IMG/VR virus record: IMGVR_UViG_3300010368_000114
Coordinates: 1-23,648 of that record
Reading direction: 5' to 3' (one strand)
DNA length: 23,648 nt
Source of the DNA: a virus
Below are positions 818-22,758 of the stretch, piece after piece. The translations under genes and the position numbers were made by a program. The first letter of the stretch is position 1. Each line of letters starts with the position of its first letter. A model generated the notes under the pieces. It had not been told where the DNA came from. It was given only the letters and a program-made list of their open reading frames with translations, and did no database searches.

Positions 818-2407
818 ATGCCAGTAACAGAATCTCATATCCTGAGTAACCAGACAGGGTTGACTGTCGCGGAAGAGTTGTCGCCTAAAGTTTTGCCATT
901 AAATCCTGTTTGGCGGGAGCTGGAACCCAACACGGAAGACATGGGCGCTAGTTATAGCCAGGTTGCACGAAGCCCTATCAATAGCAGCAGGCAGCGTCGT
1001 AAGGGGGCAGTTACTGACCTTGACTCGCAGGCTTCCCTTCAAGTGGATCTTACCACGGACCCTGTAGTACGTGACCTGCTTCAGGGCTATGTCTTCGCAG
1101 ACATCGAGAATAAAGGCGTCAGCGAGAATGTACTTGGCAGCACGCAACGTCAGCACGCTATTGACTCTAGCACGGATGTGGTGACAGCCTCCGGCGACAC
1201 GCCCTCCTTATCTGATGACTTCTCGCAAGGTGACCTAGTCTTAGTATCTGGGTCTTTTTCGGAAGCAAACAACGGCCTGTTTAAGGTTGATAGTGGGGCC
1301 ACCGCAACCACATTGAGCCTTATCGCTGCGGATGGGACTGACGGATCAGTCAATACCGTGGACGAGTTGGCCACTTCGGAGATTACCCTAGTAAAGGTAG
1401 GGGCACAGGGCGGGTCTGGGGCCATTGAGGTATCTGCGACGGGTGGCTTCCCCCAGTTGACTAGCCTTTCCTTTGACTTTACCACTCTGGGTCTTGTACC
1501 TGGTGAGTGGATTTATGTTGGCGGCGACGAGCTAAGTACTAAGTTTGCTACTGCCGCAAACAACGGATTTGCGCGGGTCCGCTCGGTCACATCAAACGTA
1601 ATCACGGTGGACAAGACATCGGATACTTGGGTGACTGACAACGGCGCAACTAAGCTAATTAGCCTATTCATCGGTCGGCGTCTGCGTAATCGCACAGGTT
1701 CTGCAATCAAGCGCCGCTCCTATCAGTTTGAGCGTAGCCTAGGAGCGCCCAATAGCGCGTCCCCCGGCCAGGTCCAGTATGAATATGTTACGGGCGCGGC
1801 ACCTTCCATCGCCAAGATTGACCTTAGCACTGCTGACAAGGTCATGGTTGATCTTGAGTACATCGGCCTTGGGTACGAGACTCTAGATGCGGCCACCGGC
1901 AAAAAGAGTGGTACCCGCCCTACATTGGAAAGCGGGGATGCTTACAACGCTTCTAACCATGTCAAGCGAACATCCTTGCGTCTAGCGAGTGGTCAAAACC
2001 CCAACAACACGGATGAGTTCACTTACGCTGCGGACCTAGAGTTCTCCATCAATAACAACGTCAGCCCCCTGAAGGCCATTGGCACGCTTGGTGGGTTTGA
2101 TACAAACGCCGGGGAGCTTACAGTTGATGCCTCGTTGACCGCATTCTTTGCCGACATTGTGGTTATGAGTCGTATTGCAAATAACGACGACATGACCCTT
2201 GATACGATTTTGGTCCAAGAAAACAAGGGGGTAGCGATTGATCTACCTTTGGTGACACTAGGCTCCGACAATCCGCAAATCTCGGCTAACGAGGCTGTAA
2301 CTTTGCCTCTGACCATTACTGCGGTATCTGGGAACGCTATCTCTAGTACCTTGGATCACACGATCATGTTCAATTTCTTCGATTACCTACCAACAGCAGC
2401 AGGCTAA
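818..2407 (+). CDS. major tail tube protein with an internal beta-domain insertion
   Basis: This 529-residue protein resembles the large siphophage tail tube proteins (Phage_tube type), whose monomers stack into hexameric rings around the tape measure. Family-like parts are the N terminus (about residues 1-110, with the conserved EPNTEDMGASYSQVAR and LTTDPVVRDLLQGYVFADI stretches) and the C terminus (about 310-529, ending in HTIMFNFFDYLPTAAG). Between them, about 115-300, lie two related beta-rich stretches built on a GD/GEW-hydrophobic-VGG pattern and ANNG-F-V, probably a surface-exposed decoration. The ATG at 818 has an AGGAG site and follows a real gap, so the start is secure. Its place directly before the chaperone and tape measure genes fits the invariant order of siphophage tails. 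Confidence 0.85.
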   Translation: MPVTESHILSNQTGLTVAEELSPKVLPLNPVWRELEPNTEDMGASYSQVARSPINSSRQRRKGAVTDLDSQASLQVDLTTDPVVRDLLQGYVFADIENKGVSENVLGSTQRQHAIDSSTDVVTASGDTPSLSDDFSQGDLVLVSGSFSEANNGLFKVDSGATATTLSLIAADGTDGSVNTVDELATSEITLVKVGAQGGSGAIEVSATGGFPQLTSLSFDFTTLGLVPGEWIYVGGDELSTKFATAANNGFARVRSVTSNVITVDKTSDTWVTDNGATKLISLFIGRRLRNRTGSAIKRRSYQFERSLGAPNSASPGQVQYEYVTGAAPSIAKIDLSTADKVMVDLEYIGLGYETLDAATGKKSGTRPTLESGDAYNASNHVKRTSLRLASGQNPNNTDEFTYAADLEFSINNNVSPLKAIGTLGGFDTNAGELTVDASLTAFFADIVVMSRIANNDDMTLDTILVQENKGVAIDLPLVTLGSDNPQISANEAVTLPLTITAVSGNAISSTLDHTIMFNFFDYLPTAAG

Positions 2408-2411
2408 GTAT

Positions 2412-2852
2412 ATGGCACTTCGCGACCAATTTAAGACGGACAATAAACTCGAAAATGATGGCATCTGGCTGGAATTTGACGAAGTAAGAGTCCGTGTTCG
2501 GCGAGCGGGAAAGTCTAACAAAGCATTTCTAGCTGAAATGGCCAAGCACCAACGTGCCTTGAGTATTGGTGCAATCCGAGGCTCAAAAGCAGACAAACTG
2601 GCGTATGAGGTATTCGGCAAGACGGTAGTTTGCGGATGGGAGACTATGGTTAAGGGCCAATGGGTAGAGGGTATTGACCCATTGGACGCGGGCAAAAAGG
2701 CTTCTAAGACAGGAGACCTTCTCCCAGCAACTAGCGAATTTATTATTGATGTGTTCAACGAGTTGCCGGAGTTCGCGGATTTGGTGATCAGCCAAGCTTC
2801 TAACCATGAGTCATTTCTTGCTGAAGTTAGGGAGGAGAAAGCAAAAAACTAA
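2412..2852 (+). CDS. tail assembly chaperone, zero-frame product (lambda gpG analogue)
   Basis: This 146-residue protein begins four bases after the tail tube stop. Its pattern (DGIWLEFDEVRVRVRRAGKS, then ETVV-like GKTVVCGW, and a helical end) is that of phage tail assembly chaperones, which coat the tape measure and recruit tube protein but are absent from the finished virion. The gene ends GCA AAA AAC TAA, that is, a slippery A AAA AAC directly followed by the stop, so a fraction of ribosomes should shift to -1 and make the longer G-T product. Family assignment rests on sequence pattern plus position and the frameshift, which together make it strong. Only a weak ribosome binding site (AGCAGG) precedes it, so coupling to the upstream stop is likely. 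Confidence 0.85.
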   Translation: MALRDQFKTDNKLENDGIWLEFDEVRVRVRRAGKSNKAFLAEMAKHQRALSIGAIRGSKADKLAYEVFGKTVVCGWETMVKGQWVEGIDPLDAGKKASKTGDLLPATSEFIIDVFNELPEFADLVISQASNHESFLAEVREEKAKN

Positions 2853-2884
2853 GGGAGGCCCTCCGTTATGCGTTGACGGAGGGC
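2829..2884 (+). promoter_or_regulatory. -1 programmed ribosomal frameshift signal in the chaperone gene
   Basis: Three elements are in register. AGGGAGGAG (2829-2837) is a Shine-Dalgarno-like stimulator five bases before the slippery site. A AAA AAC (2843-2849) is a canonical slippery heptamer, correctly phased to the zero frame and immediately followed by the TAA stop. Eight bases later a perfect 9-bp stem, GCCCTCCGT (2858-2866) with ACGGAGGGC (2876-2884), closes a 9-base loop. The same three-part layout is known from E. coli dnaX. A -1 shift joins the 146-residue frame to the open frame ending at 3172. Confidence 0.92.
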
Positions 2885-3172
2885 AAGTTTGAACAAAAGG
2901 CGCTGGAGATGTGCATCCATCAAGGGATGCCTCTTCCCGCTCGAATTGAGAACGCTCCCCAGCCTGCGGAATGTTGTATACTTTTCTGGGCTGCTTTCCA
3001 CGAACTTACCAGCACACGCTCCATCGGATTCTCTATCGGCCCAATCCCTTGGACGGCAGTAAAAGCATGGGCGGATGAGCATGAGCTTGTAGGTAGTGTA
3101 CGCGAAGACCTTTTTTTCTATGTATCCGCGATGGACGAGGAGTTTCTGAATCATCATGTCAAAAGTGACTAA
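2849..3172 (+). CDS. tail assembly chaperone, -1 frameshift extension (lambda gpT analogue)
   Basis: This frame has no ATG and no separate ribosome binding site near its beginning; it is reached by a -1 slip at 2843-2849. The fused product reads through KAK into LREALRYALTEGKFEQKALE and has about 253 residues in total, 107 of them from this extension. The extension carries the pattern usual for gpT-like parts: a helical start, W-AFHEL-TSTRSIGFSIGPIPW in the middle, and a closing helix with AMDEEFLNHH. In lambda the gpGT fusion binds the tape measure through G and the tail tube protein through T, and the G:GT ratio matters for assembly. A TTG at 2873 could in theory start it separately, but that is much less likely. 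Confidence 0.87.
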   Translation, partial: LREALRYALTEGKFEQKALEMCIHQGMPLPARIENAPQPAECCILFWAAFHELTSTRSIGFSIGPIPWTAVKAWADEHELVGSVREDLFFYVSAMDEEFLNHHVKSD

Positions 3173-3659
3173 CCACAAAACCTTTAAGTCACTTGTGCTG
3201 AATCTTAAACGCCGCGCTAAGTGGATGCAAATGAATGCGGATGAGAGGCTAAAGACAGCAGCGACAACTGGTTTACATTCTGTTGCTATGGGTACCCCTG
3301 CTGACACGGGTCTTGCCCGCTCTAGTTGGAAGGTAGGGATAAACCGTATACCCGATATCACGCCTAGAAAGCGTCCTTTCTTTCCTGGGAAAAACTTGGG
3401 GATGGATGAGGGTTCCAATGCTATGGGATCAATCCGAGCAGGCTATAGACGGCTCAAGCGGGTTAAGGCCCACCATACGGTTTATATTCTAAATACCCAG
3501 CCCTACCTCAACAGCCTAAACGACAGCCCAGGGAAAAGCCCTCAGAATCGCCACTTTATTGAGAAGGCTCTAGACAAGGTTAGAAGGGTTCACTATAGCA
3601 GGTCTTTGTTAGGAAAGCCGGTAAAAGCTAATTCTTTTAGGGTGAGAAGCAGTGGCTAG
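3156..3659 (+). CDS. HK97 gp10-like minor tail / tail completion protein
   Basis: This 167-residue basic protein overlaps the end of the chaperone extension by 17 bases. The segment MGTPADTGLARSSWKVGI is the signature of HK97-gp10-like proteins (a small family at the neck/tail junction, where PxDTGxLRxSW is conserved), and a later YILNTQPYLNSLNDSP matches the family's YIxNxxPYxxxLE part. A long basic helix precedes it. In most phages this gene lies between the head and the tail tube genes; here it sits between the chaperone and the tape measure, which is unusual. The ATG at 3156 is chosen because the preceding GAGGAG, though 13 bases away, is the best site and the frame begins here. Confidence 0.65.
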   Translation: MSKVTNHKTFKSLVLNLKRRAKWMQMNADERLKTAATTGLHSVAMGTPADTGLARSSWKVGINRIPDITPRKRPFFPGKNLGMDEGSNAMGSIRAGYRRLKRVKAHHTVYILNTQPYLNSLNDSPGKSPQNRHFIEKALDKVRRVHYSRSLLGKPVKANSFRVRSSG

Positions 3660-6276
3660 TACAAGAGATACTCATGTGATGGAGTTCCAGACTAGAGGTC
3701 TGGGAAAGTCTAAACGTGCCCTAGAGGGGACCGGAAATTCCGCTATGCGCGCCGGTAAAAGAATAAAATCACTGGGTGCTGCTATGGCAGCACTCGGTGG
3801 CCTTTCTGCCGGTGCTTCTTTGATAAAGCTGGGGGATGACTACAAGCAACTGCGCAACCGTATTCGCCTGACGACTGGTAGCGTTAAAGAGCTGAACTCC
3901 GTTCAAAACCACCTAATGCGTATTTCAAGAAGCACGCGAACTGATGTACGGACTAATGCAGAGGTTTTCAACCGGATGGGGCTGGCTGTAAAGGGACTAA
4001 GTTTCAGCCAAGCAGACGTAATCAAGGCCACCCAAGCCCTGAATGCTGCTATGCAGGTGTCGGGGGCTAGTGCAGATGAGGCGAGTGCCTCTATTATCCA
4101 GTTTACTCAAGGGCTGGCGTCTGCCCGTCTTGCGGGCGACGAGATGCGCTCCATTATGGAGCAGACACCGAAGGTTATTGATGTCATCCTCCAGCACGTC
4201 AATGCAGTGGAGAATCTAAATCTCGCCCGTGGTGACGCCAAGGAAATAGCCATGACGGGCTTTTTCAACCCTGAGCGTGTCTTTGGGGCGCTTATAAGCA
4301 AAGCTGGTGACGATGCGATTAAGGAGTTTGAGGAGACCCAAAAGACCATGCGGCAGAGCATTACTGTTCTCCGCAATGAGTTCCTTATTTCTATTGGGGA
4401 GTACATGGATGTAATGGGGGTAGATTCTGGTCTGAGCAGGGTTCTGGAGTTAATCAGCGAAAACGCAAAGGGAATAGTTCGCATTCTTGGGGCGGCGGGG
4501 CTTTTGGGGGCAATAGCCACCCTAGGGTCCGCTATGGGTGTACTTTTAACCCCCTTTACTGCCACCTTAGCGGGCCTAGTTGGGCTTATGTCGAATATGG
4601 ATAAAATTAAGCTGGGCGTGGTAGAGAAAACCAATGTGTTCGCTGTGGACATAATGAACTCTTTTCTTCACAACAGCATAGATACCTTAAAACAGGTAAT
4701 GGCGAAGAGTTCGGAGAAGATGCAGAGCCTTTTAAACCTTCAGGAAGACGGCCCAGGATTACATAACATCCACCGAGTCCTCTCAGGAGCCGTAAAAGGG
4801 GCAATTGCCTTCATAAAAGTTAATGTGTTAGCGGGTATGGTCCTAGTGGAGAACCTTTTCATTATAGGAAAGCAGTTATTTAACAAGATGACTGAGATCA
4901 TCGAACGTATTTATAAGAAGATACAAGATCTTCTCCAATCCTCCCAAGGTTTAGTATCCCACATCAGGGTAAAGACGGGCTTGGACACTGTAGGTCCAGA
5001 ACCAATGCAAAGCCCTGCCCCAAGGAAAAAACCTGCTTGGCAATCAGGAGCGGACAAGATGTTTAAGTTAGCATTGGGGGATTCTTTGCCCGAACGCCGC
5101 GAAGGCGAGATGAAACTCTTCCATTTAGGAAGAGGGATAGGTAATTTCTTGGGTAGTATGTTCGAGAAGGAGGACCCAGATTTATTTGAAACCAACGATA
5201 TTGCGTTAAGAGGGGTGCCGCCAAGGGTAAAGCAAACAGCCCCTGGGCTTCCGCTACTGCCTGCGACTCCCGTTTCTCCTCCTCGTGATATCGTTGGGGA
5301 GTCGCTAGTTAAGATCCAGACAGCCTTTGCTGGCGCTGAAGAAGCTATCTTGGGGTTTACTGCTAATGTTGTAACTGACTCCCTCCAGCACGCACGGAAC
5401 CGGGAGCAATCCCAGCGGCATCTTATGAAAAGGCTTAATATCAACCCAGACGAGGAGTTTGAACTTCTAGGAACAAGCGCCTTCCCTGCGGGAGGCAATT
5501 CTGGCAAAGCGGGCAAGCCTGGGCAGTATAAGGTCGATGCCTTGATAAAAGAATTAGCCATTGAGGGGGAGGCGATCCTGAAGTTCTCCCAGTCACAGTT
5601 AAGCATGGAGCAAAAGCATTTAGAGATCATCAGCAGGTACAACCATATACTTACCGAGGGCGTAAACGGCACCAACGAACAGATACGAAAGCTATTGGCT
5701 CGTAATGAACTGGCCAAGATTGCGGCACCTATCAAAGAACGGTTTACTCGCTCAGAGGATGTTATTAGACAAAGGGCCGCAGACATGCTGTTGGACCGCG
5801 AAGACATCACCCCTAGGCAGCATACCCTTGTCACACAAGAGAATCGCCTAAGCGCACTTTCCGAGTCCCAGACCATGATGGCAGGCGCAGAGCGGGCATT
5901 GATTCAGTTGGAGCTTCAGGCCGCAGACTCCGCAGGAAACATGGAGAGTGTATTAACAAACGCCTTCCAAGGGGTTGAGGACGCATTGGCCAAGTTCGTA
6001 GAGACAGGTAAGTTAGACTTTAAGAGTTTGGTTTCCTCTATCCTTTCCGATATGACCAGGCTCGCCATCAAGGAGAATATTACACCCTTGTTGGCACAGG
6101 GCGTTCGGGGGGCATTGGGGATGATTGGTCTATCTGCACCCAACCCCGCAGCAGCCGCCGGTGGAGACTCAGGGGGTGTAACCAACGTCTTTCAAATTCA
6201 AACTCCAGACGCGGCAAGTTTTCGAACCTCTATACCCCAGCTCACAGCCACCGCAGCAGGAACAGGAGGAAGATAA
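3652..6276 (+). CDS. tail tape measure protein
   Basis: An 874-residue protein that sets tail length and is ejected with the DNA. Residues about 55-200 carry the tape-measure N-terminal domain (TMP_3 type): YKQLRNRIRLTTG, VFNRMGLAVKGLS, and QFTQGLASARLAGDEMRSI followed by EQTPKVIDVI. Residues about 273-312 form a Gly/Ala/Leu-rich hydrophobic stretch able to cross a membrane. The end, about 763-820 (NAFQGVEDALAKFVETGKLD and SILSDMTRLAIKENITPLL), matches the lambda gpH-like C-terminal motif. By the usual 0.15 nm per residue, the tail would be roughly 130 nm long. The start is a GTG overlapping the upstream stop by eight bases; an ATG at 3679 is an alternative start. No lysozyme or peptidase domain is visible inside. 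Confidence 0.92.
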   Translation: MASTRDTHVMEFQTRGLGKSKRALEGTGNSAMRAGKRIKSLGAAMAALGGLSAGASLIKLGDDYKQLRNRIRLTTGSVKELNSVQNHLMRISRSTRTDVRTNAEVFNRMGLAVKGLSFSQADVIKATQALNAAMQVSGASADEASASIIQFTQGLASARLAGDEMRSIMEQTPKVIDVILQHVNAVENLNLARGDAKEIAMTGFFNPERVFGALISKAGDDAIKEFEETQKTMRQSITVLRNEFLISIGEYMDVMGVDSGLSRVLELISENAKGIVRILGAAGLLGAIATLGSAMGVLLTPFTATLAGLVGLMSNMDKIKLGVVEKTNVFAVDIMNSFLHNSIDTLKQVMAKSSEKMQSLLNLQEDGPGLHNIHRVLSGAVKGAIAFIKVNVLAGMVLVENLFIIGKQLFNKMTEIIERIYKKIQDLLQSSQGLVSHIRVKTGLDTVGPEPMQSPAPRKKPAWQSGADKMFKLALGDSLPERREGEMKLFHLGRGIGNFLGSMFEKEDPDLFETNDIALRGVPPRVKQTAPGLPLLPATPVSPPRDIVGESLVKIQTAFAGAEEAILGFTANVVTDSLQHARNREQSQRHLMKRLNINPDEEFELLGTSAFPAGGNSGKAGKPGQYKVDALIKELAIEGEAILKFSQSQLSMEQKHLEIISRYNHILTEGVNGTNEQIRKLLARNELAKIAAPIKERFTRSEDVIRQRAADMLLDREDITPRQHTLVTQENRLSALSESQTMMAGAERALIQLELQAADSAGNMESVLTNAFQGVEDALAKFVETGKLDFKSLVSSILSDMTRLAIKENITPLLAQGVRGALGMIGLSAPNPAAAAGGDSGGVTNVFQIQTPDAASFRTSIPQLTATAAGTGGR

Positions 6277-13476: not shown

Positions 13477-14124
13477 ATGTCCACAACTACACTAGGTCTT
13501 CCCTTGATGTTTGAGGGCCAGACAGGAAATGAGATACAATACAACGAGATGATCGTTTGGGTAAGTGCCCTATTACGCACTGGCGCAAAAGACATTCTTA
13601 ACACGCCACCCGGCTCCCCCACCCAAGAAGACACCTACCTAATTGGCCCAGCGCCTACTGGGGATTGGGTAGGAAAGCCTTACTACATTGCTACCTACAT
13701 CGGAACAGCATGGAAGACCATTTCGCCGCTAGAGGGCTGGTCCCTTTGGATCGACGAAGAAGACGAAAGGTACACCTATGACGGCACAAGCTGGGTCGTT
13801 TACGGCGTTAAGAAGGAGTCCGTGTCAGTTACTGGGGTAGTCAGCAAGTTCGCCGGTAAGCATGTAGTCAACCTGACAGACACTCTAACCCTGACAGTAC
13901 CCGACCCTACGACGTACAACGCCAACGAGCAGCAGCGTACAGAGTTAATCCTGCGGGTACCTGGGGCGCATACAGTAACCCTAGCCACCCCCTCTGGTGT
14001 ATTTCGCTCGGACCTAGCTCCCAGCGGAGTCTCCTCCCCTACATTATCAGGACAGTATGTACAGCTTTCGCTGCACACTGATGGAACTGATTGGATTACC
14101 TACGCAAACGGAGGGATCGCTTAA
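13477..14124 (+). CDS. DUF2793 tail protein
   Basis: A 215-residue protein with an AGAGGAT site before ATG 13477. The first 110 residues match DUF2793: LGLPLMFEGQTGNEIQYNE, TPPGSPTQEDTYLIGPAPTG, and SPLEGWSLWIDEED followed by YTYDGTSWVVY. DUF2793 proteins are encoded at the end of GTA-like tail modules, next to gp15, and are thought to be tail-fibre or tip accessory proteins. The remaining 100 residues (TLTVPDPTTYNANEQQRTE and later YVQLSLHTDGTDWITYANGG) form another small beta domain of the kind common in fibre proteins. Function beyond being structural is unknown. Confidence 0.82.
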   Translation: MSTTTLGLPLMFEGQTGNEIQYNEMIVWVSALLRTGAKDILNTPPGSPTQEDTYLIGPAPTGDWVGKPYYIATYIGTAWKTISPLEGWSLWIDEEDERYTYDGTSWVVYGVKKESVSVTGVVSKFAGKHVVNLTDTLTLTVPDPTTYNANEQQRTELILRVPGAHTVTLATPSGVFRSDLAPSGVSSPTLSGQYVQLSLHTDGTDWITYANGGIA

Positions 14125-17100
14125 TGCGCTGCCTACTTCTTTCTCTACTTCTCGCCATTACGGCTCTGGCCGGTCCTGTCCCACTAAAAGTTGACAATCA
14201 GACTGGCGATATCTACCCACCCCCTGGGCAGGTAGTAAACCTTCCAGCCGGGTCCACAATGGGTAACGTGCCAATTGCCACGGGAACTGGAGCCGTCATT
14301 ACAATTAGTGATGATGGCAGCGTTACGGCTACTAATATTAGTACTATTGACTTTGGCTCAGTCCTGGACATTAACATTGCCGGGTCTGAAGCAGATGTAA
14401 CTTTGACAATCTCAGAAGCAAGCGCCGCAACGCCTACCTTGACTGACACTTTTCTTTTGGGAGATGCCAGTGACAGTGGTCTTATCAAAAGGGCTACTCT
14501 ATCCGAGCTTAGGACCCTGATTGATACTGGCGGAAATAGCCTGATAGTTATCAAGGAGGATGGGGGGCTTACCACTACCAAGGCCACCACAATAAACTTA
14601 GGTACTGGTCTGGATTGGACCTGGGCTGACCCAGAAGCTACGCTGGACCTAGATATAAATGAGTATGGCTCGGCTACCCCCACCCTTGTAGATACTATCT
14701 TGATTTACGATGATAGTGCTGCGGCTGTAAAGAAGTCAAGCCTAGTTAATGTACAGGCTCTAATTGACACAAATACCACGTATACTGCTGGGGCCGGACT
14801 TACTCTTGCGGGTACAGTGTTTTCACTCGATCATCTTGGCTTTCAGGATATGACAGACCCCAATGGCGACCGAATTACCTACTGGGACGACACGGCAGGA
14901 AACATGGACTGGCTTTTTGTAGGCTCCACCCTTCAAATCGTAGGGTCTATCCTTAACGTAGCCGCAGACAGCATCGGAAACACAAAACTAGCAGAAATGG
15001 CACAATCCACCCTAAAGGGCAGGCAGTCGGGAGCGGGCACTGGAGACCCACAGGATCTGACAGCGGCTCAGGTGCGCACAATCCTAAACGTGGAAAACGG
15101 GGCGACTTCTGACCAGACAGACAGCGAGATCGAGACGGCCTACAACAACCAAGTAGCGCAGGTGTCTACAGCCGAACGTACTGCTGGTACGGAGACCGCA
15201 ATCCGACGGTTAAGCCCTGCTGATATTCACAGCATGATTGATACCCATGGTGCGGGCGGAGGTGCAGGCGGGTCTGGCACGGTTAACAGAGTCAAGGATG
15301 ATGGGCTACAGGTAGGGGAAGCGGATATCGTCACTATCGATGTGGGGCTTGGGCTAAAGGCCACTGAGTCCCCTGATAAAGAAATAAACCTGGACCTAGA
15401 CATTGCCGAGCTTCCGCTCACTTCTCTTAATACATTGGACTCATTGGTGTTTATGGATGCCTCGGATAGCAACCTACCCAAAAGAAACACATTGTATGCG
15501 TTGAAGCTTATGATTGATACAGATACTGACACAGACACGCAGTTGACAGAAGAGCAGGTTGAGGATTTTATTGGCAATGGCCTCACAGGCAACACAGAGA
15601 CCGGAATTACCGTCACATATCAAGACGCAGATGGCACATTTGATTTCGTAGTTGACTCTATCACAGCGGCTGATCTAGGGGCGGCAAGCGAAAACATTGA
15701 GGCAGACGGGACAATTCGGTGGGAGGACGCGGGGGCGTTGGATTCTAGTGGAAACCTGACAACTACTTATCTTGTAGCGACGGATATAGACACCGAGTCC
15801 GAGTTTGAAACTTTGTTGACTAACGTCACAAACGTCTTTACTAACAACGATATCTCATCTTTTGGGGCCAGCCTTGTTGATGATGCCGACCAAGCATCTG
15901 CCCAGACTACATTGAACGTAGACCCAGCAGGCACGGATAACTCTACAAATGTAACATTGGCAGGCACACCAGACTACGTAACTTTATCCGGCCAAGTGCT
16001 AACAAGGGGACTAGTTGATGTAACTACTGATATTACGGGTGTTGTACCTATCTCTAACCTAGCGACAGGTACCCCAAACGGAAGCAAATTCATCAGAGAT
16101 GATGGCGTTCTTGCTGAAATAGCGGGTGGAGGTGATGCCCTTGTCGCGAACCCACTTTCCCAATTTGCAACGACCACATCTCTTCAATTAGCGGGGGTTA
16201 TCTCAGATGAGACAGGAACTGGTGCTGTTGTACTCAGTACTTCTCCTACTCTGGTTACCCCGGCATTAGGTACACCATCTGCTGCGATTCTGACTAATGC
16301 TACTGGATACCCAGGGGACGAGAGTCTTCTTACTACAGGTACAATTGGTACAGGAACTTGGCAGGGTACTGCTATTGCAGATCCTTATATTGCCAGTGCT
16401 GCAACATGGAATGGAAAGCAAGATCAAGCAAATGTGCTAGATGACATAACAGCAACGGGTACAGCAACAGCAGCAGATCAAATCATAGTATCGACAGGAG
16501 CAGGTACCTTTTCTTTGGAAAGCGGATCAACACTTTTAGCCTCTATCGGTGCTGACCCAGCAGGCACGGATAACTCTACAAATGTAACATTGGCAGGCAC
16601 ACCCGACTATGTAACTCTATCTGGCCAGGTGCTAACAAGGGGGCTAGTTGACGTAACTACCGATATTACGGGCGTTGTGCCTATCGCTAACCTAGGTACA
16701 GGTACTCCAGACGGAACTAAATATTTGAGAGACGATGGGGTATTTGCTAACCCTGGGATAAATCATTTGAGTGATGTAAGTATCTCTGATCCATCAGAGA
16801 ATGACATTCTTGTGTACGACACAGGGAGCTGGGTGAACGTTGAGAGTGTCCCAAGCGCAGACAGAACTCAATTTAAAATACGGAACGAAACAGGTTCTAC
16901 TATTTCGGCAGGTACACCAGTCTACATTTCTGGTTTTTCCGGCGGTCAGGATGTGCCACTCGCAGCCGCTGCCGATGCCTCTTCCGCAATTACAATGCCA
17001 GCGATTGGAGTTCTAAAAGAAGACCTTTCAAACAATTCAACGGGTTACTGTGTTTCTCTTGGCTCAGTTGTAAACATCGACACTTCAACTTTTTCAGCGG

Positions 17101-18671
17101 GTGACACACTTTACGTTGCAAATGGTGGAGGGTTTACAAAAACCAAACCTACTGGAACAAATCTAATCCAGAATATCGGTAAATGCTTAAAAGTAAACAC
17201 CACAACTGGGTCAATAGAAGTTATGGGAGCAGGTAGATCAAATGATGTACCAAACATCACTTCTGCCAATTTCTGGGTAGGTAACGCCTCCTCAGTTGCA
17301 ACGCCTGTGGTAATGAGTGGGGACGCAACTATGACGAATGCTGGTGTTGTTTCCCTTGCTGGTAATTCAGTCAGCGATGCCGAAATTGCATTGGTAACTC
17401 CTGCTCTTGGTACCCCTTCCTCCGTGGTTTTGACTAACGCTACAGGTTACCCCGGCGATGCCAGTCTTGTAACCACAGGTACAATTGGGACAGGAACTTG
17501 GCAGGGTACTGCTATTGCTGACGCCTATATCTCAGGTGCAGCGGGTTGGGATGCCAAACAAGCCCAGGCGGATATCCTTGATGATATTGGTGCGGTAAGC
17601 GCGCCGGGAGCGGCAGATCAGGTCTTGGTTTCGACTGGGGCAGGCGCGTTCGCTTTGGAGTCTGGCGCTACACTTCGCACGAGCCTGGGACTGGCAATCG
17701 GGTTTGATGTCCAACCTTATAACCCAATCGTGGCAGATAGTCAGGACACACTAGGGTATTTCTCATCGACGACTTCCGCCGAACTGGCAGGAGTTATCTC
17801 AGATGAAACAGGTACTGGTGCTGCTGTATTTGGCACTTCGCCTACTCTTGTTACCCCCGCGCTGGGTACCCCATCCTCCGTGGTCTTGACTAACGCGACA
17901 GGGCTACCCGTCGCAGGACTAGCCGCCAGCACATCAGCGGACATGGCAACCGTTTTATCGGATGAGACAGGTACGGGCGCTGCGGTCTTTGGTACCTCCC
18001 CTACCCTTGTCACCCCCGCGCTGGGTACCCCATCTGCTGTGGTCTTGACTAACGCTACAGGTTACCCCGGAGATTCCAGTCTTGTAACTGTCGGGACGGT
18101 TGCCACAGGGACTTGGCAGGGTACACGTGTAGACAGCGACTACCTAGATCTGTCCGTAAAACTACTGGGCCAATGGTACGACATGATGGCAGACGCTGCG
18201 GCGTGGAAGCCCGATAGTACGACAGGCCCAGAGACGGGAGACTCCGACGAGCATACGATTAAGGCGTTCTCTGGTATCGCATCCGAAACTGCCCGTATCA
18301 AGCCAATGATGCCCCGGTCGTGGAACGAGGGCACTGTGAAGGTCACGGTAGCATGGAAGGGCACTACAGGCGCTGCGCCTGGCGATGGGGTGGCTTTCGT
18401 GATCTCTGGGGCATCCGTCGCAAACGATGGCGCTTGGCCACCAACCACCGGCAGCGCAGTCACATTTACTGATACTGTGATTGCAGTTGGGGACATGCAC
18501 TATGTCACCTCTGGGTCGATCACTGTTGCTGGGGCTGCTGCTGGAGTCCTTACTGAGTTTGAACTGTATCGTGACCACGACCATGTCTCAGACACCATGA
18601 CGGAAGACCTCCATCTTTACTCAGTCCTGCTACACTATCAGAAAGCCAGCACAGAGGTGGCAGCACCATGA
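14124..18671 (+). CDS. large repetitive tail fibre-like protein with N-terminal signal peptide
   Basis: ATG 14124 shares one base with the upstream TAA and has GGAGGG eight bases before it, so this start is well supported; the product has 1515 residues. It begins MRCLLLSLLLAITALA-GPVP, a textbook Sec signal peptide, odd for a phage fibre. Three copies of a 65-80-residue unit follow (about 60-135, 140-206, 387-465), each ending near DASDS-KR-TL-LIDT. Then come a DTDTDTDTQLT linker, paired repeats at about 600-645 and 811-856, four copies of VTPALGTPS-VLTNATG, and at about 915-1035 a compact beta domain (IRNETGSTISAGTPVYISG, AIGVLKEDLS). The units are common in aquatic phage fibres. The C-terminal 170 residues are non-repetitive and could be the receptor-binding end. 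Confidence 0.75.
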   Translation: MRCLLLSLLLAITALAGPVPLKVDNQTGDIYPPPGQVVNLPAGSTMGNVPIATGTGAVITISDDGSVTATNISTIDFGSVLDINIAGSEADVTLTISEASAATPTLTDTFLLGDASDSGLIKRATLSELRTLIDTGGNSLIVIKEDGGLTTTKATTINLGTGLDWTWADPEATLDLDINEYGSATPTLVDTILIYDDSAAAVKKSSLVNVQALIDTNTTYTAGAGLTLAGTVFSLDHLGFQDMTDPNGDRITYWDDTAGNMDWLFVGSTLQIVGSILNVAADSIGNTKLAEMAQSTLKGRQSGAGTGDPQDLTAAQVRTILNVENGATSDQTDSEIETAYNNQVAQVSTAERTAGTETAIRRLSPADIHSMIDTHGAGGGAGGSGTVNRVKDDGLQVGEADIVTIDVGLGLKATESPDKEINLDLDIAELPLTSLNTLDSLVFMDASDSNLPKRNTLYALKLMIDTDTDTDTQLTEEQVEDFIGNGLTGNTETGITVTYQDADGTFDFVVDSITAADLGAASENIEADGTIRWEDAGALDSSGNLTTTYLVATDIDTESEFETLLTNVTNVFTNNDISSFGASLVDDADQASAQTTLNVDPAGTDNSTNVTLAGTPDYVTLSGQVLTRGLVDVTTDITGVVPISNLATGTPNGSKFIRDDGVLAEIAGGGDALVANPLSQFATTTSLQLAGVISDETGTGAVVLSTSPTLVTPALGTPSAAILTNATGYPGDESLLTTGTIGTGTWQGTAIADPYIASAATWNGKQDQANVLDDITATGTATAADQIIVSTGAGTFSLESGSTLLASIGADPAGTDNSTNVTLAGTPDYVTLSGQVLTRGLVDVTTDITGVVPIANLGTGTPDGTKYLRDDGVFANPGINHLSDVSISDPSENDILVYDTGSWVNVESVPSADRTQFKIRNETGSTISAGTPVYISGFSGGQDVPLAAAADASSAITMPAIGVLKEDLSNNSTGYCVSLGSVVNIDTSTFSAGDTLYVANGGGFTKTKPTGTNLIQNIGKCLKVNTTTGSIEVMGAGRSNDVPNITSANFWVGNASSVATPVVMSGDATMTNAGVVSLAGNSVSDAEIALVTPALGTPSSVVLTNATGYPGDASLVTTGTIGTGTWQGTAIADAYISGAAGWDAKQAQADILDDIGAVSAPGAADQVLVSTGAGAFALESGATLRTSLGLAIGFDVQPYNPIVADSQDTLGYFSSTTSAELAGVISDETGTGAAVFGTSPTLVTPALGTPSSVVLTNATGLPVAGLAASTSADMATVLSDETGTGAAVFGTSPTLVTPALGTPSAVVLTNATGYPGDSSLVTVGTVATGTWQGTRVDSDYLDLSVKLLGQWYDMMADAAAWKPDSTTGPETGDSDEHTIKAFSGIASETARIKPMMPRSWNEGTVKVTVAWKGTTGAAPGDGVAFVISGASVANDGAWPPTTGSAVTFTDTVIAVGDMHYVTSGSITVAGAAAGVLTEFELYRDHDHVSDTMTEDLHLYSVLLHYQKASTEVAAP
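15283..15522 (+). repeat. third copy of the fibre N-terminal ~75-residue unit
   Basis: This stretch encodes the third copy of a unit whose first two copies lie at about 14301-14528 and 14547-14741. All three share the order: an [I/V]xxDG start, TI-x-[F/L/V]-G, an acidic Leu/Asp strand, TxxLDxxLxxDASDS-like, K-R-x-TL, and LIDT or MIDT at the end. The copies are diverged (roughly a third to a half identical by eye), so the duplication is old. They probably form successive beta modules of a trimeric shaft. Confidence 0.6.
15921..16056 (+). repeat. fibre repeat A, copy 1
   Basis: About 136 bases that recur at 16554-16689, 633 bases later in the same frame. The first 50 or so bases are identical; after that nearly all differences fall on third codon positions, so the encoded protein (DPAGTDNSTNVTLAGTPDYV and beyond) is almost unchanged. 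This suggests duplication inside the gene with later silent drift, or partial gene conversion. Confidence 0.85.
16335..16378 (+). repeat. fibre repeat B, conserved core
   Basis: A 44-base stretch that recurs at 17475-17518 with a single mismatch; it encodes TGTIGTGTWQGTAIA. A more diverged third copy, coding TVGTVATGTWQGT, lies near 18088-18123. Each follows a VLTNATGYPG segment, so the core is part of a larger unit. Confidence 0.8.
16554..16689 (+). repeat. fibre repeat A, copy 2
   Basis: Second copy of the 15921-16056 unit in the same reading frame. The protein is nearly identical (one visible change near the end, SNL to ANL), while third codon positions differ. It is followed by GTGTPDGTKYLRDDGVFANP, which parallels TGTPNGSKFIRDDGVLAEI after copy 1, so the protein-level repeat is longer than the DNA-level repeat. 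Confidence 0.85.
17475..17518 (+). repeat. fibre repeat B, second copy
   Basis: Second copy of the 16335-16378 core, 1140 bases downstream and in frame, with one mismatch. It belongs to a longer block (about 17395-17590) that parallels 16249-16470 at protein level, including LTNATGYPGD and a VLDDI / ILDDI end. Confidence 0.8.
17792..18063 (+). repeat. tandem fibre repeat C, 53-residue period
   Basis: Two adjacent copies of a unit that starts at SDETGTGA and runs through FGTSPTLVTPALGTPS and VVLTNATG. The spacing is 159 bases (for example the PALGTPS codons after 17850 and after 18009), exactly 53 codons. A related single copy lies at about 16200-16310. Differences between copies are mainly silent. 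Confidence 0.8.
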
Positions 18672-20400: not shown

Positions 20401-22758
20401 TTAACCTAGGACCTCATCGTCCATCAGGGCGATGGGGTCAGGCCACTCTACGGAAAGACCAGTATGCTCGCACCAAGCTCTGCGGGAATCCTCTAAGTCA
20501 TAAAGATTAGTGAAGTACACCGGCCTGCTCATCGTGTTACCACTGGCCAAGATTATTGGGTTCCTGCTCCGCTTTTTCCCCAACGAGGAGGAGCAGCAAC
20601 GCATAAGTTCCTCAATTTCCTTGGCTATTCTGGTGGAGGACTTCCTACCTGTAGGGCAGCTACGCTTGTAGTCCTCAACCAGCATCTCTACAGCAACTTG
20701 GGTCTTCCACGTTTCGTGGTCATCTAACCAGTAGCCACGCTCAAGTTTGTTATAGAACCACTCCATATGGTAGGGCATTGAAAGTAACTGCTGCTCCTGA
20801 AGGGCTTCTGTCCTTGGAGCAAGCCGTACTTGGAACCCAGTAAGGTCGAGGTGCATAAGATGGTAGAGAAGCGCCTCGTAGCCCCCCGATGAAAGCTGGG
20901 CCTGCATATCCAAAAAGTAAGGAATGTCCTGCCGGTGGCTCTCACCCACATCCAGCACGAAAAATCGGCGCTCATCCCCAGAGCTAGGCACTACCCACTT
21001 GTCGTTTGACGACATAATTATGTGCAGGCAGCTTTGCTGGGCTGCGATGTCGATGCCCTTCTTTTCGACGTTAAGTAGGTCCTCGGTAACCAACCCCTTC
21101 AGGACACTCTCGTGTGCTTTATCCCCAGCATAGAAGGCTTCGTCACCGAAAAGCACAATACAATCCTGTAAATGTGCATTGAACTGGCCAGTGATATGCC
21201 GAGAGTTTGTCACCTGCATGAAATGACGCCCAAAAAGCTTTCCGAAATGATCAACAGCTTGGCCTTTACCTACTCCCTTCTTTCCCCGCAGCACGACTGC
21301 AACCTGCCCAGGCTGGTTGGGATGCTGTACGCAACTAGCCATCCACTTAGTCAGGTAGTCGTAATATACATCATTGCCATTGCATACCACATCCCGTAGG
21401 TGAGATAAATAAAGGTCACAACAACCCTTAATAGGAGGAAAGGAAAAACCTCTCCATAGGTTAAATGCATTTGGGATTTCACGTTCTGGGGCGAAAACCA
21501 GGGTCTCGTACTGGCGGCGCTTTGGGTGGCGCAACCACCATTCCGCCAGCGGAGTTAGTTTAGTCTCGCCATTCTTTGACGTTGTCTCCTTGAATCTATT
21601 GGCGTAGGCTGCTTTGAAATCAGTGGGAGCCATGTAAGTCAAAGCAGTCCGGTCAGACTTCGCACCGGGGACAATAACCTCTGTGGTAATGCGGAACTTT
21701 CCTCCCATGTTCTGGATGCAGGCATACTTCTCATTTAGCTGCATTAGTTCTGGATCAGCAACAAACTGCTTGGCTCTGCTGATCTGTCGCATAGCATAAC
21801 GTCTACAAGCCGAAGCTGACCCCTTGTCCAGGACAGACGCGCTAATCCTATAGTCTGGGTCCAGCAAAATCGAGAAAATGAGGGCATCTGCCACATCTGC
21901 TTCATGTAGGCGGCAACAAACCCACAAGAGTGCAGCAGAGCGATCCCCTTCCCATCTGCCCTCCTGAACGGGATCTTCTCCTGAGATAATAACAGCTTTC
22001 ACGCTGTCCTTCACCGAGGTAGGTAGGTTGTCTAGGTCTACATAAGATGCGGGTTCCATTGGATCGACATCGACTTCACAGCTAGGGTCGTAGTCCAACA
22101 AAAGCCCAGAATCCTGGGTGAGTGGCATTGAATTGAACTCGGAAAGAGAGTGGCTTTCTTGGTCGTAGTAGACTACAGTGGCAAGAGACTCTTTTTGGCC
22201 TCTAATAATCTTCTTTGCATTAGGGAAATTAGTAGTGTAGGGCAGACGCATGATCCGGTCCACGTTGTGGCAGTGATCAGCATTATATTTACGCTCCAAA
22301 CTTCTGTTATAGGAAGCAGCGGTCTCGTAGGCTGTCTGGTTGCCTCGGATAGGCATCGGGTCCGTCAGACGCCAGAAACACTGGTACCCTCCCCCAGAGT
22401 CAATAACCAAGTTAGGCATCGGGGTGCCCTTCTGCGGGCTAAGGACCAATTCACTAATACGGACGCGCTCTTCTTGGAAGTCACACTTCTTATCGGGGTC
22501 TACATCTACATGCAGCCATGTAAGTTCTGATATATCCTCACGAGACGCCTTCTTAAACATTTGCCGTAAGGTGGGATTAACCCCAAAGTAGATGTTCTTT
22601 CCACAACTGGCGCTGACCGCCACCCACTTGAGAACCTCTTCTCCTGATGTAAAGCTGGCAGATACGGGAGGGCTTTCACCCTTTGGGTCGATAGCGGTCA
22701 AAAGCCAAGGACCGCCGGGGCGGTACCACGTCAGGAACTCAGACGAATTAGCAAACAA
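20401..22758 (-). CDS. primase-polymerase / SF3 helicase fusion
   Basis: A 785-residue replication protein. The N-terminal part is of the RepB/PrimPol primase type: HVDVDPD (residues 83-89, acidic metal-binding motif), VIDSGGGYQCFWRL (about 118-131) and HNVDRIMRLPYTTN (164-177). The C-terminal part is a phage D5/P4-like SF3 helicase of DUF5906 type: Walker A GKKGVGKG (492-499), Walker B CIVLFGDEAF (ending in D539-E540), a sensor-like IMSSNDKW (581-588) and GDERRFFVLDV (594-604) that probably gives the arginine finger. It would make primers and unwind the origin. The start is a TTG at 22758 preceded by GGCAGG; the next Met (residue 67) would cut off part of the primase fold. Its stop abuts the stop of the convergent gene. 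Confidence 0.9.
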   Translation of the reverse strand: MFANSSEFLTWYRPGGPWLLTAIDPKGESPPVSASFTSGEEVLKWVAVSASCGKNIYFGVNPTLRQMFKKASREDISELTWLHVDVDPDKKCDFQEERVRISELVLSPQKGTPMPNLVIDSGGGYQCFWRLTDPMPIRGNQTAYETAASYNRSLERKYNADHCHNVDRIMRLPYTTNFPNAKKIIRGQKESLATVVYYDQESHSLSEFNSMPLTQDSGLLLDYDPSCEVDVDPMEPASYVDLDNLPTSVKDSVKAVIISGEDPVQEGRWEGDRSAALLWVCCRLHEADVADALIFSILLDPDYRISASVLDKGSASACRRYAMRQISRAKQFVADPELMQLNEKYACIQNMGGKFRITTEVIVPGAKSDRTALTYMAPTDFKAAYANRFKETTSKNGETKLTPLAEWWLRHPKRRQYETLVFAPEREIPNAFNLWRGFSFPPIKGCCDLYLSHLRDVVCNGNDVYYDYLTKWMASCVQHPNQPGQVAVVLRGKKGVGKGQAVDHFGKLFGRHFMQVTNSRHITGQFNAHLQDCIVLFGDEAFYAGDKAHESVLKGLVTEDLLNVEKKGIDIAAQQSCLHIIMSSNDKWVVPSSGDERRFFVLDVGESHRQDIPYFLDMQAQLSSGGYEALLYHLMHLDLTGFQVRLAPRTEALQEQQLLSMPYHMEWFYNKLERGYWLDDHETWKTQVAVEMLVEDYKRSCPTGRKSSTRIAKEIEELMRCCSSSLGKKRSRNPIILASGNTMSRPVYFTNLYDLEDSRRAWCEHTGLSVEWPDPIALMDDEVLG

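Follow-up and report, generated by a model that had tools for sequence, protein, structure and literature searches.

Tandem-tRNA -1 slippage at the heptamer A AAA AAC very probably yields a predicted 253-aa G-T fusion beside a 146-aa tail assembly chaperone in a virus fragment of 23,648 nt from IMG/VR (record IMGVR_UViG_3300010368_000114, positions 1 to 23,648; hereafter the window). The original prediction, made from the letters alone, had described a -1 frameshift cassette in the tail chaperone gene consisting of the heptamer, a Shine-Dalgarno (SD)-like sequence and a hairpin; re-derivation of the sequence reproduced these elements and their coordinates base for base, and the cassette is supported by the sequence. 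Frameshifting in tail chaperones is already established and was predicted before within this family, and the window is a well-supported, ordinary case.

The G-T junction and its place in the tail operon

Regarding the two reading frames, the 0-frame product matched PHROG 313 'Tail assembly chaperone' (E 7e-17) and the T part matched Pfam PF23812 Phage_TAC_18 (E 9e-20, above the family cut-off), while the -1 frame product also matched PHROG 3817, and PHROG 8233 covered both the G and the T part. G-part and T-part domains are thus present in overlapping frames, and the pair is sited between the tail tube gene and the tape measure gene (Table 1), with T and the tape measure gene separated by a single neck/completion gene, likewise in the Burkholderia phage KL1. 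Read from these profile matches, the two frames each encode one half of a single predicted tail assembly chaperone. A second contig was 99.87% identical to the fragment over 5.3 kb. No matches to Rfam families were found in the window.

Table 1. Positions of the G-T junction elements and other features in the window
Feature	Position	Strand	Location or basis
Tail tube gene	818-2407		upstream of G; PF18906
G-like short tail assembly chaperone, 146 aa (MALRD...EEKAKN, then stop)	2412-2852	+	PHROG 313
SD-like sequence AGGGAGGAG	2829-2837	+	duplex with anti-SD, -11.8 kcal/mol
Slippery heptamer A AAA AAC (gcA AAA AAC), in frame, phase X XXY YYZ	2843-2849	+	sequence re-derived
T-like -1 frame extension, 107 aa (LREALRY...)	2849-3172	+	Pfam PF23812, PHROG 3817
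0-frame stop TAA, next codon after the heptamer	2850-2852	+	sequence re-derived
Candidate stimulatory hairpin, 11 bp (2858-2868 with 2874-2884), 5-nt loop	2858-2884	+	RNAfold
Second, distal hairpin in the T frame	2905-2936	+	z of the window -3.0 at +45
Stop of the T-like reading frame	3170-3172		
Lambda-type tape measure gene	3652-6276		downstream of T; PF20155
Putative 1526-aa tail fibre with repeated motifs, e.g. VTPALGTPSAVVLTNATGYPGD	14091-18671		
DUF5906/VapE-like gene	20401-22758	-	opposite in strand to the tail operon

The 3' end of G reads gaa gtt AGG GAG GAG aaa gcA AAA AAC TAA. A TAG at 2828-2830, 12 nt before the heptamer, closes the -1 frame on the upstream side, and this frame then stays open from 2831 to 3169; a shift into it is therefore confined to 2831-2852, an interval of about 20 nt that holds the heptamer. 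In-frame heptamers of the types X XXA AAN and X XXU UUN were detected 19 times in 7066 codon positions of the genes of the window, and one of these 19, the heptamer at the end of G, is directly followed by a stop codon.

In the proposed mechanism, most ribosomes would read gcA AAA AAC and terminate at the codon that follows, releasing the 146-aa chaperone, while a minority would be held by pairing of the anti-SD with AGGGAGGAG upstream of the decoding site and by the 11-bp hairpin at the mRNA entry. The tRNAs on AAA and AAC would then jointly slip back one base onto AAA AAA, and reading would resume with CUA AGG GAG to give the G-T fusion (146 + 107 = 253 aa predicted). The junction peptide, earlier given as KAK-LREALRY, would depend on the moment of the slip, since slippage after AAC decoding would give AKN-LREALRY and slippage before A-site decoding AKK-LREALRY; the T side of the junction is the same in both. 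By analogy with lambda, the G product may bind the tape measure protein and the T domain may recruit tail tube subunits.

Conservation of the slippery site among relatives

A tblastn search with the T part returned 271 phage records, the majority of which aligned from T residue 1, and the junction was compared in 88 non-redundant relatives, including loci drawn from 80 in IMG/VR. Two loci (L005 and L006) proved to be no chaperones but chance matches to a short stretch, and were discarded. A search of bacterial genome contigs gave three loci, all in one Anaerolinea MAG, which are too few for a host assignment; these three copies (L110, L111 and L112) lie on two large contigs (DYKZ01000001/2) of the Anaerolinea thermophila MAG and are possibly on phage contigs binned along with it.

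The pattern XXXAAAN was present in identical register in 88/88 relatives, as G GGA AAC in 48, A AAA AAC in 39 and G GGA AAG in one, with no intermediate forms. The final base was C in all relatives with the exception of L034, which has GGGAAAG. The middle codon alternates between AAA (Lys) and GGA (Gly), and both forms occur within close clades; on a tree built from the T protein with the junction left out, the heptamer form switched at least three times on well-supported branches and 16 times by parsimony. The encoded residue thus varies between Lys and Gly while the heptamer persists, which argues for selection on the nucleotide pattern, and the distribution of the two forms fits simultaneous re-pairing of two tRNAs rather than transcriptional slippage on an A run. 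The original prediction had named relatives that keep both reading frames but lose the heptamer and the stem as evidence against it: the heptamer has been lost in none of the 88, whereas the particular stem of the window has been lost in many.

A stop as the next codon after the heptamer was found in 65 of the 88 relatives, compared with 30.1 expected from synonymous choice at the first two T codons, a comparison between sequences of shared ancestry that carries no strict probability. The site had been called unusually compact, which is not borne out by this frequency nor by the published sites of KL1 and the Acinetobacter phage Loki. The excess of stops is in agreement with a possible, though doubtful, variant of the mechanism in which the slip is delayed by one step. 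The stop would then occupy the A site, the tRNAs paired with AAA and AAC would sit in the E and P sites, and the ratio of products would be set by competition with the release factor. With the HIV slippery site in bacteria, the abundance of release factor altered frameshifting when a stop was the next codon, which was read as E/P-site slippage (PMC4373837), and in bacteria AAC is an unfavourable A-site codon for slippage (PMC4066793). However, 23/88 relatives retain the heptamer with a sense codon in that position, a stop there reduced frameshifting in the HIV test (PMC4373837), and the next-codon stop may be selected merely for prompt termination of G. In the YuA-like clade (L013, L014, L058, L071, L078, L080, L081, L083, L085, L087, L094, L104 and L107), which has a sense codon after the heptamer, G extends 39 nt further in the 0 frame.

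Separate synthesis of T by re-initiation after the TAA at TTG 2873 would use AAGGGAGG (2851-2858) as its ribosome binding site. This SD-like sequence lies 14 nt ahead of the in-frame TTG and many depositors have entered T as a separate gene, but re-initiation is very unlikely in view of where conservation begins: the T motif LxEVLxY starts at codon 1 after the heptamer, ahead of any start codon in most relatives, with L at the first codon in 87/88 and V, L and Y at positions 4, 5 and 7, whereas the first possible start codon of T is located anywhere from codon 4 to codon 71, and in over half of the relatives it comes after codon 17. AAGGGAGG also overlaps the base of the hairpin, and re-initiation leaves the invariant slippery heptamer unexplained. 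Joined G-T products have been annotated by depositors in KL1, Loki, RcRudolph and AH03. RNA polymerase slippage on the A6 run, with standard translation of the resulting mRNAs of altered length giving the fusion, is extremely improbable: A-rich heptamers can signal transcriptional slippage (PMC3711429), but in bacteria it has been described on stretches of roughly 9 A or T (PMC5009743), and more than half of the relatives carry G GGA AAC, without such a run.

RNA structures and the SD-like sequence around the heptamer

Regarding tandem-tRNA slippage at the heptamer, a downstream structure with suitable spacing is present in the window beyond the constraint of the coding sequence. The perfect 9-bp stem reported earlier (2858-2866 with 2876-2884) was confirmed together with its 8-nt spacer, and RNAfold lengthens it to 11 bp by one G-U and one A-U pair. 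The energy of the hairpin was -21.6 kcal/mol (z -4.0), and none of 200 dinucleotide shuffles was as strong. Because the stem sits in coding sequence, synonymous recoding was chosen as the control; recodings of the hairpin of the window gave -9.2 +/- 2.8, with 0/400 as strong, and across the family 41/87 sequences had P <= 0.05 in this test. With the heptamer in the P and A sites, the hairpin starts 11 nt past the P-site codon, and at such a distance the stems of dnaX and HIV impede the binding of tRNA to the A site (PMC7282821). The possibility that the hairpin is a terminator was rejected, as no T run follows it and a terminator scan of the + strand was empty.

The register of the window (8-nt spacer, pairing sum 44) was the main or strongest local fold in 33 sequences, and the hairpin is missing or in a different register in many relatives. 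Covariation was analyzed in set A4, comprising 38 sequences including the window, and 5/11 pairs were altered on both sides, with 11 cells showing compensatory changes compared with 3.7 in shuffles (0/500), in a set that was picked by similarity around the protein motif of the hairpin and is hence biased towards hairpin carriers. The 11-bp structure pairs in 84.9% of the cells of this set and outscores every slid version of itself, and in the alignment the exchanges at three hairpin pairs come from the window itself. RNAalifold returned no consensus structure for the same 38 sequences. The stem of the window exceeds what coding constraint explains, yet it is present in only part of the family.

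The SD-like AGGGAGGAG is strong in the window (P = 0.01 against synonymous recoding); 0.2% of gene G windows in the family pair with the anti-SD as strongly. It falls inside the spacing of 6-17 nt of stimulatory SD sequences (PMC4066793). Across the family, SD-like sequence is more abundant at the junction than in the remainder of G, but selection on SD strength beyond the demand of the Glu-rich peptide was not detected (mean z -0.08 against synonymous recoding); the SD is not conserved in relatives as an upstream stimulator, which is an optional element of such sites, and was rejected as a family-wide one. The strong SD is a feature of the window and not of the family.

When the codons of gene T were shuffled synonymously in 86 sequences, a position-resolved structure test revealed two peaks of excess structure, one at the start of T (mean z -1.9) and one at +54 to +102 after the heptamer (mean z -2.0), over a baseline that was close to zero elsewhere in T and about -0.3 in G. 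At +54, z was below -2 in 59% of the 86 sequences, and the excess overall spans +45 to +102. The second peak comprises a distal hairpin with two main registers (pairing sums 163 and 158), each of which shows more covariation than shuffles do; in the window the distal hairpin lies outside the main registers and is less strong than that of many relatives. The distal hairpin region was noted in loci L004 and L007-L109.

In a Septimatrevirus-like clade without the compact hairpin, the energy was extreme only when about 120 nt were folded (12/12 with z <= -2.5), and the EVLAY codons pair with the NAPEL codons around the second hairpin. This long-range stem (+1 to +22 with +98 to +124) was significant in that clade and is not claimed for the window, where z was -0.2. 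A stem of +7 to +18 with +105 to +118 reuses the 5' arm of the compact hairpin in relatives that do not have that hairpin; loci with a long-range stem are L004, L007, L011, L017, L018, L022, L025, L029, L093, L100-L102 and L109. No earlier report of the second hairpin or of the long-range stem was found in the open-access literature. These analyses show two selected hairpins in the family, one immediately past the heptamer and the other about 55-100 nt downstream of it, with a putative role in frameshifting. Tentatively, the AAC-ending sites might be offset by a two-part RNA stimulator, made up of the proximal hairpin or the Septimatrevirus-like long-range stem together with the distal hairpin, often with a next-codon stop and release factor competition.

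Frameshift level and comparison with known systems

The high efficiency suggested earlier is unsupported, as A AAA AAC is much less shifty in E. coli and a lambda-type chaperone needs a low ratio. AAC is a poor A-site codon for -1 slippage in E. coli, so slippage would need stimulators, or else a host whose tRNA-Asn is more permissive. The frameshift level is more likely to be modest, by analogy with the chaperone sites of another family, which were measured at 6-7% (PMC3711429), and the lambda-type chaperone ratio is low, at 30:1 (PMC5009743). These phages of bacteria retain AAC-type heptamers, a class that is weak in E. coli but strong in eukaryotes.

The compact site of heptamer plus stop is a trait of the family and not an oddity, and the comparative set is worth more than the single case, as it separates what is fixed (the heptamer register and C as its last base) from what is optional (the SD, the hairpin register and the stop) and flags two selected RNA structures that are directly testable. 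Should the second hairpin or the long-range stem contribute to frameshifting, these phages would offer a tractable example of distal stimulators in bacteria.

Among published predictions, KL1 has GGGAAAC immediately upstream of TGA (PMC3483164) and Loki has AAAAAAC next to the stop (PMC5313236). Both share with the window homologous G and T halves (PF23812-type), a slippery site immediately before the G stop and a gene order in which one gene separates T from the tape measure gene, at a protein identity of about 30-40%; neither has the 11-bp hairpin register with the 8-nt spacer or the strong SD of the window, and the hairpin of Loki is in another register. For phiCbK-like Caulobacter phages and Colossus, a frameshift in the chaperone preceding the tape measure gene was predicted at AAAAAAC or GGGAAAC (PMC3556154). 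These phages, to which the phage of locus L028 is related, share a frameshift of this kind with the window but are very distant from it and differ in downstream structure.

Regarding lambda, gpG/gpGT resembles the window in its presumed two-product function and its position in the tail operon. The slippery site of lambda gpG/gpGT is GGGAAAG.

The resemblance to E. coli dnaX that had been proposed holds for the layout, with an SD, a six-A heptamer and a hairpin of about 10-11 bp, and fails at the key codon: the heptamer of dnaX is A AAA AAG, read twice by tRNA-Lys, and its shift gives a shorter product at about 50% efficiency, whereas that of the window is A AAA AAC and its predicted shift gives a longer one. 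In E. coli, which may not be the host of the window, A AAA AAC is much less shifty than the A AAA AAG of dnaX (PMC5009743; PMC4066793). The Chlorobium dnaX candidate is nearer in layout, in that a 0-frame stop immediately follows its site (PMC5009743), and the g-t sites of the haloarchaeal viruses HCTV-1 and HCTV-2, compared for the heptamer alone, share both heptamers with this family in different hosts (PMC5009743).
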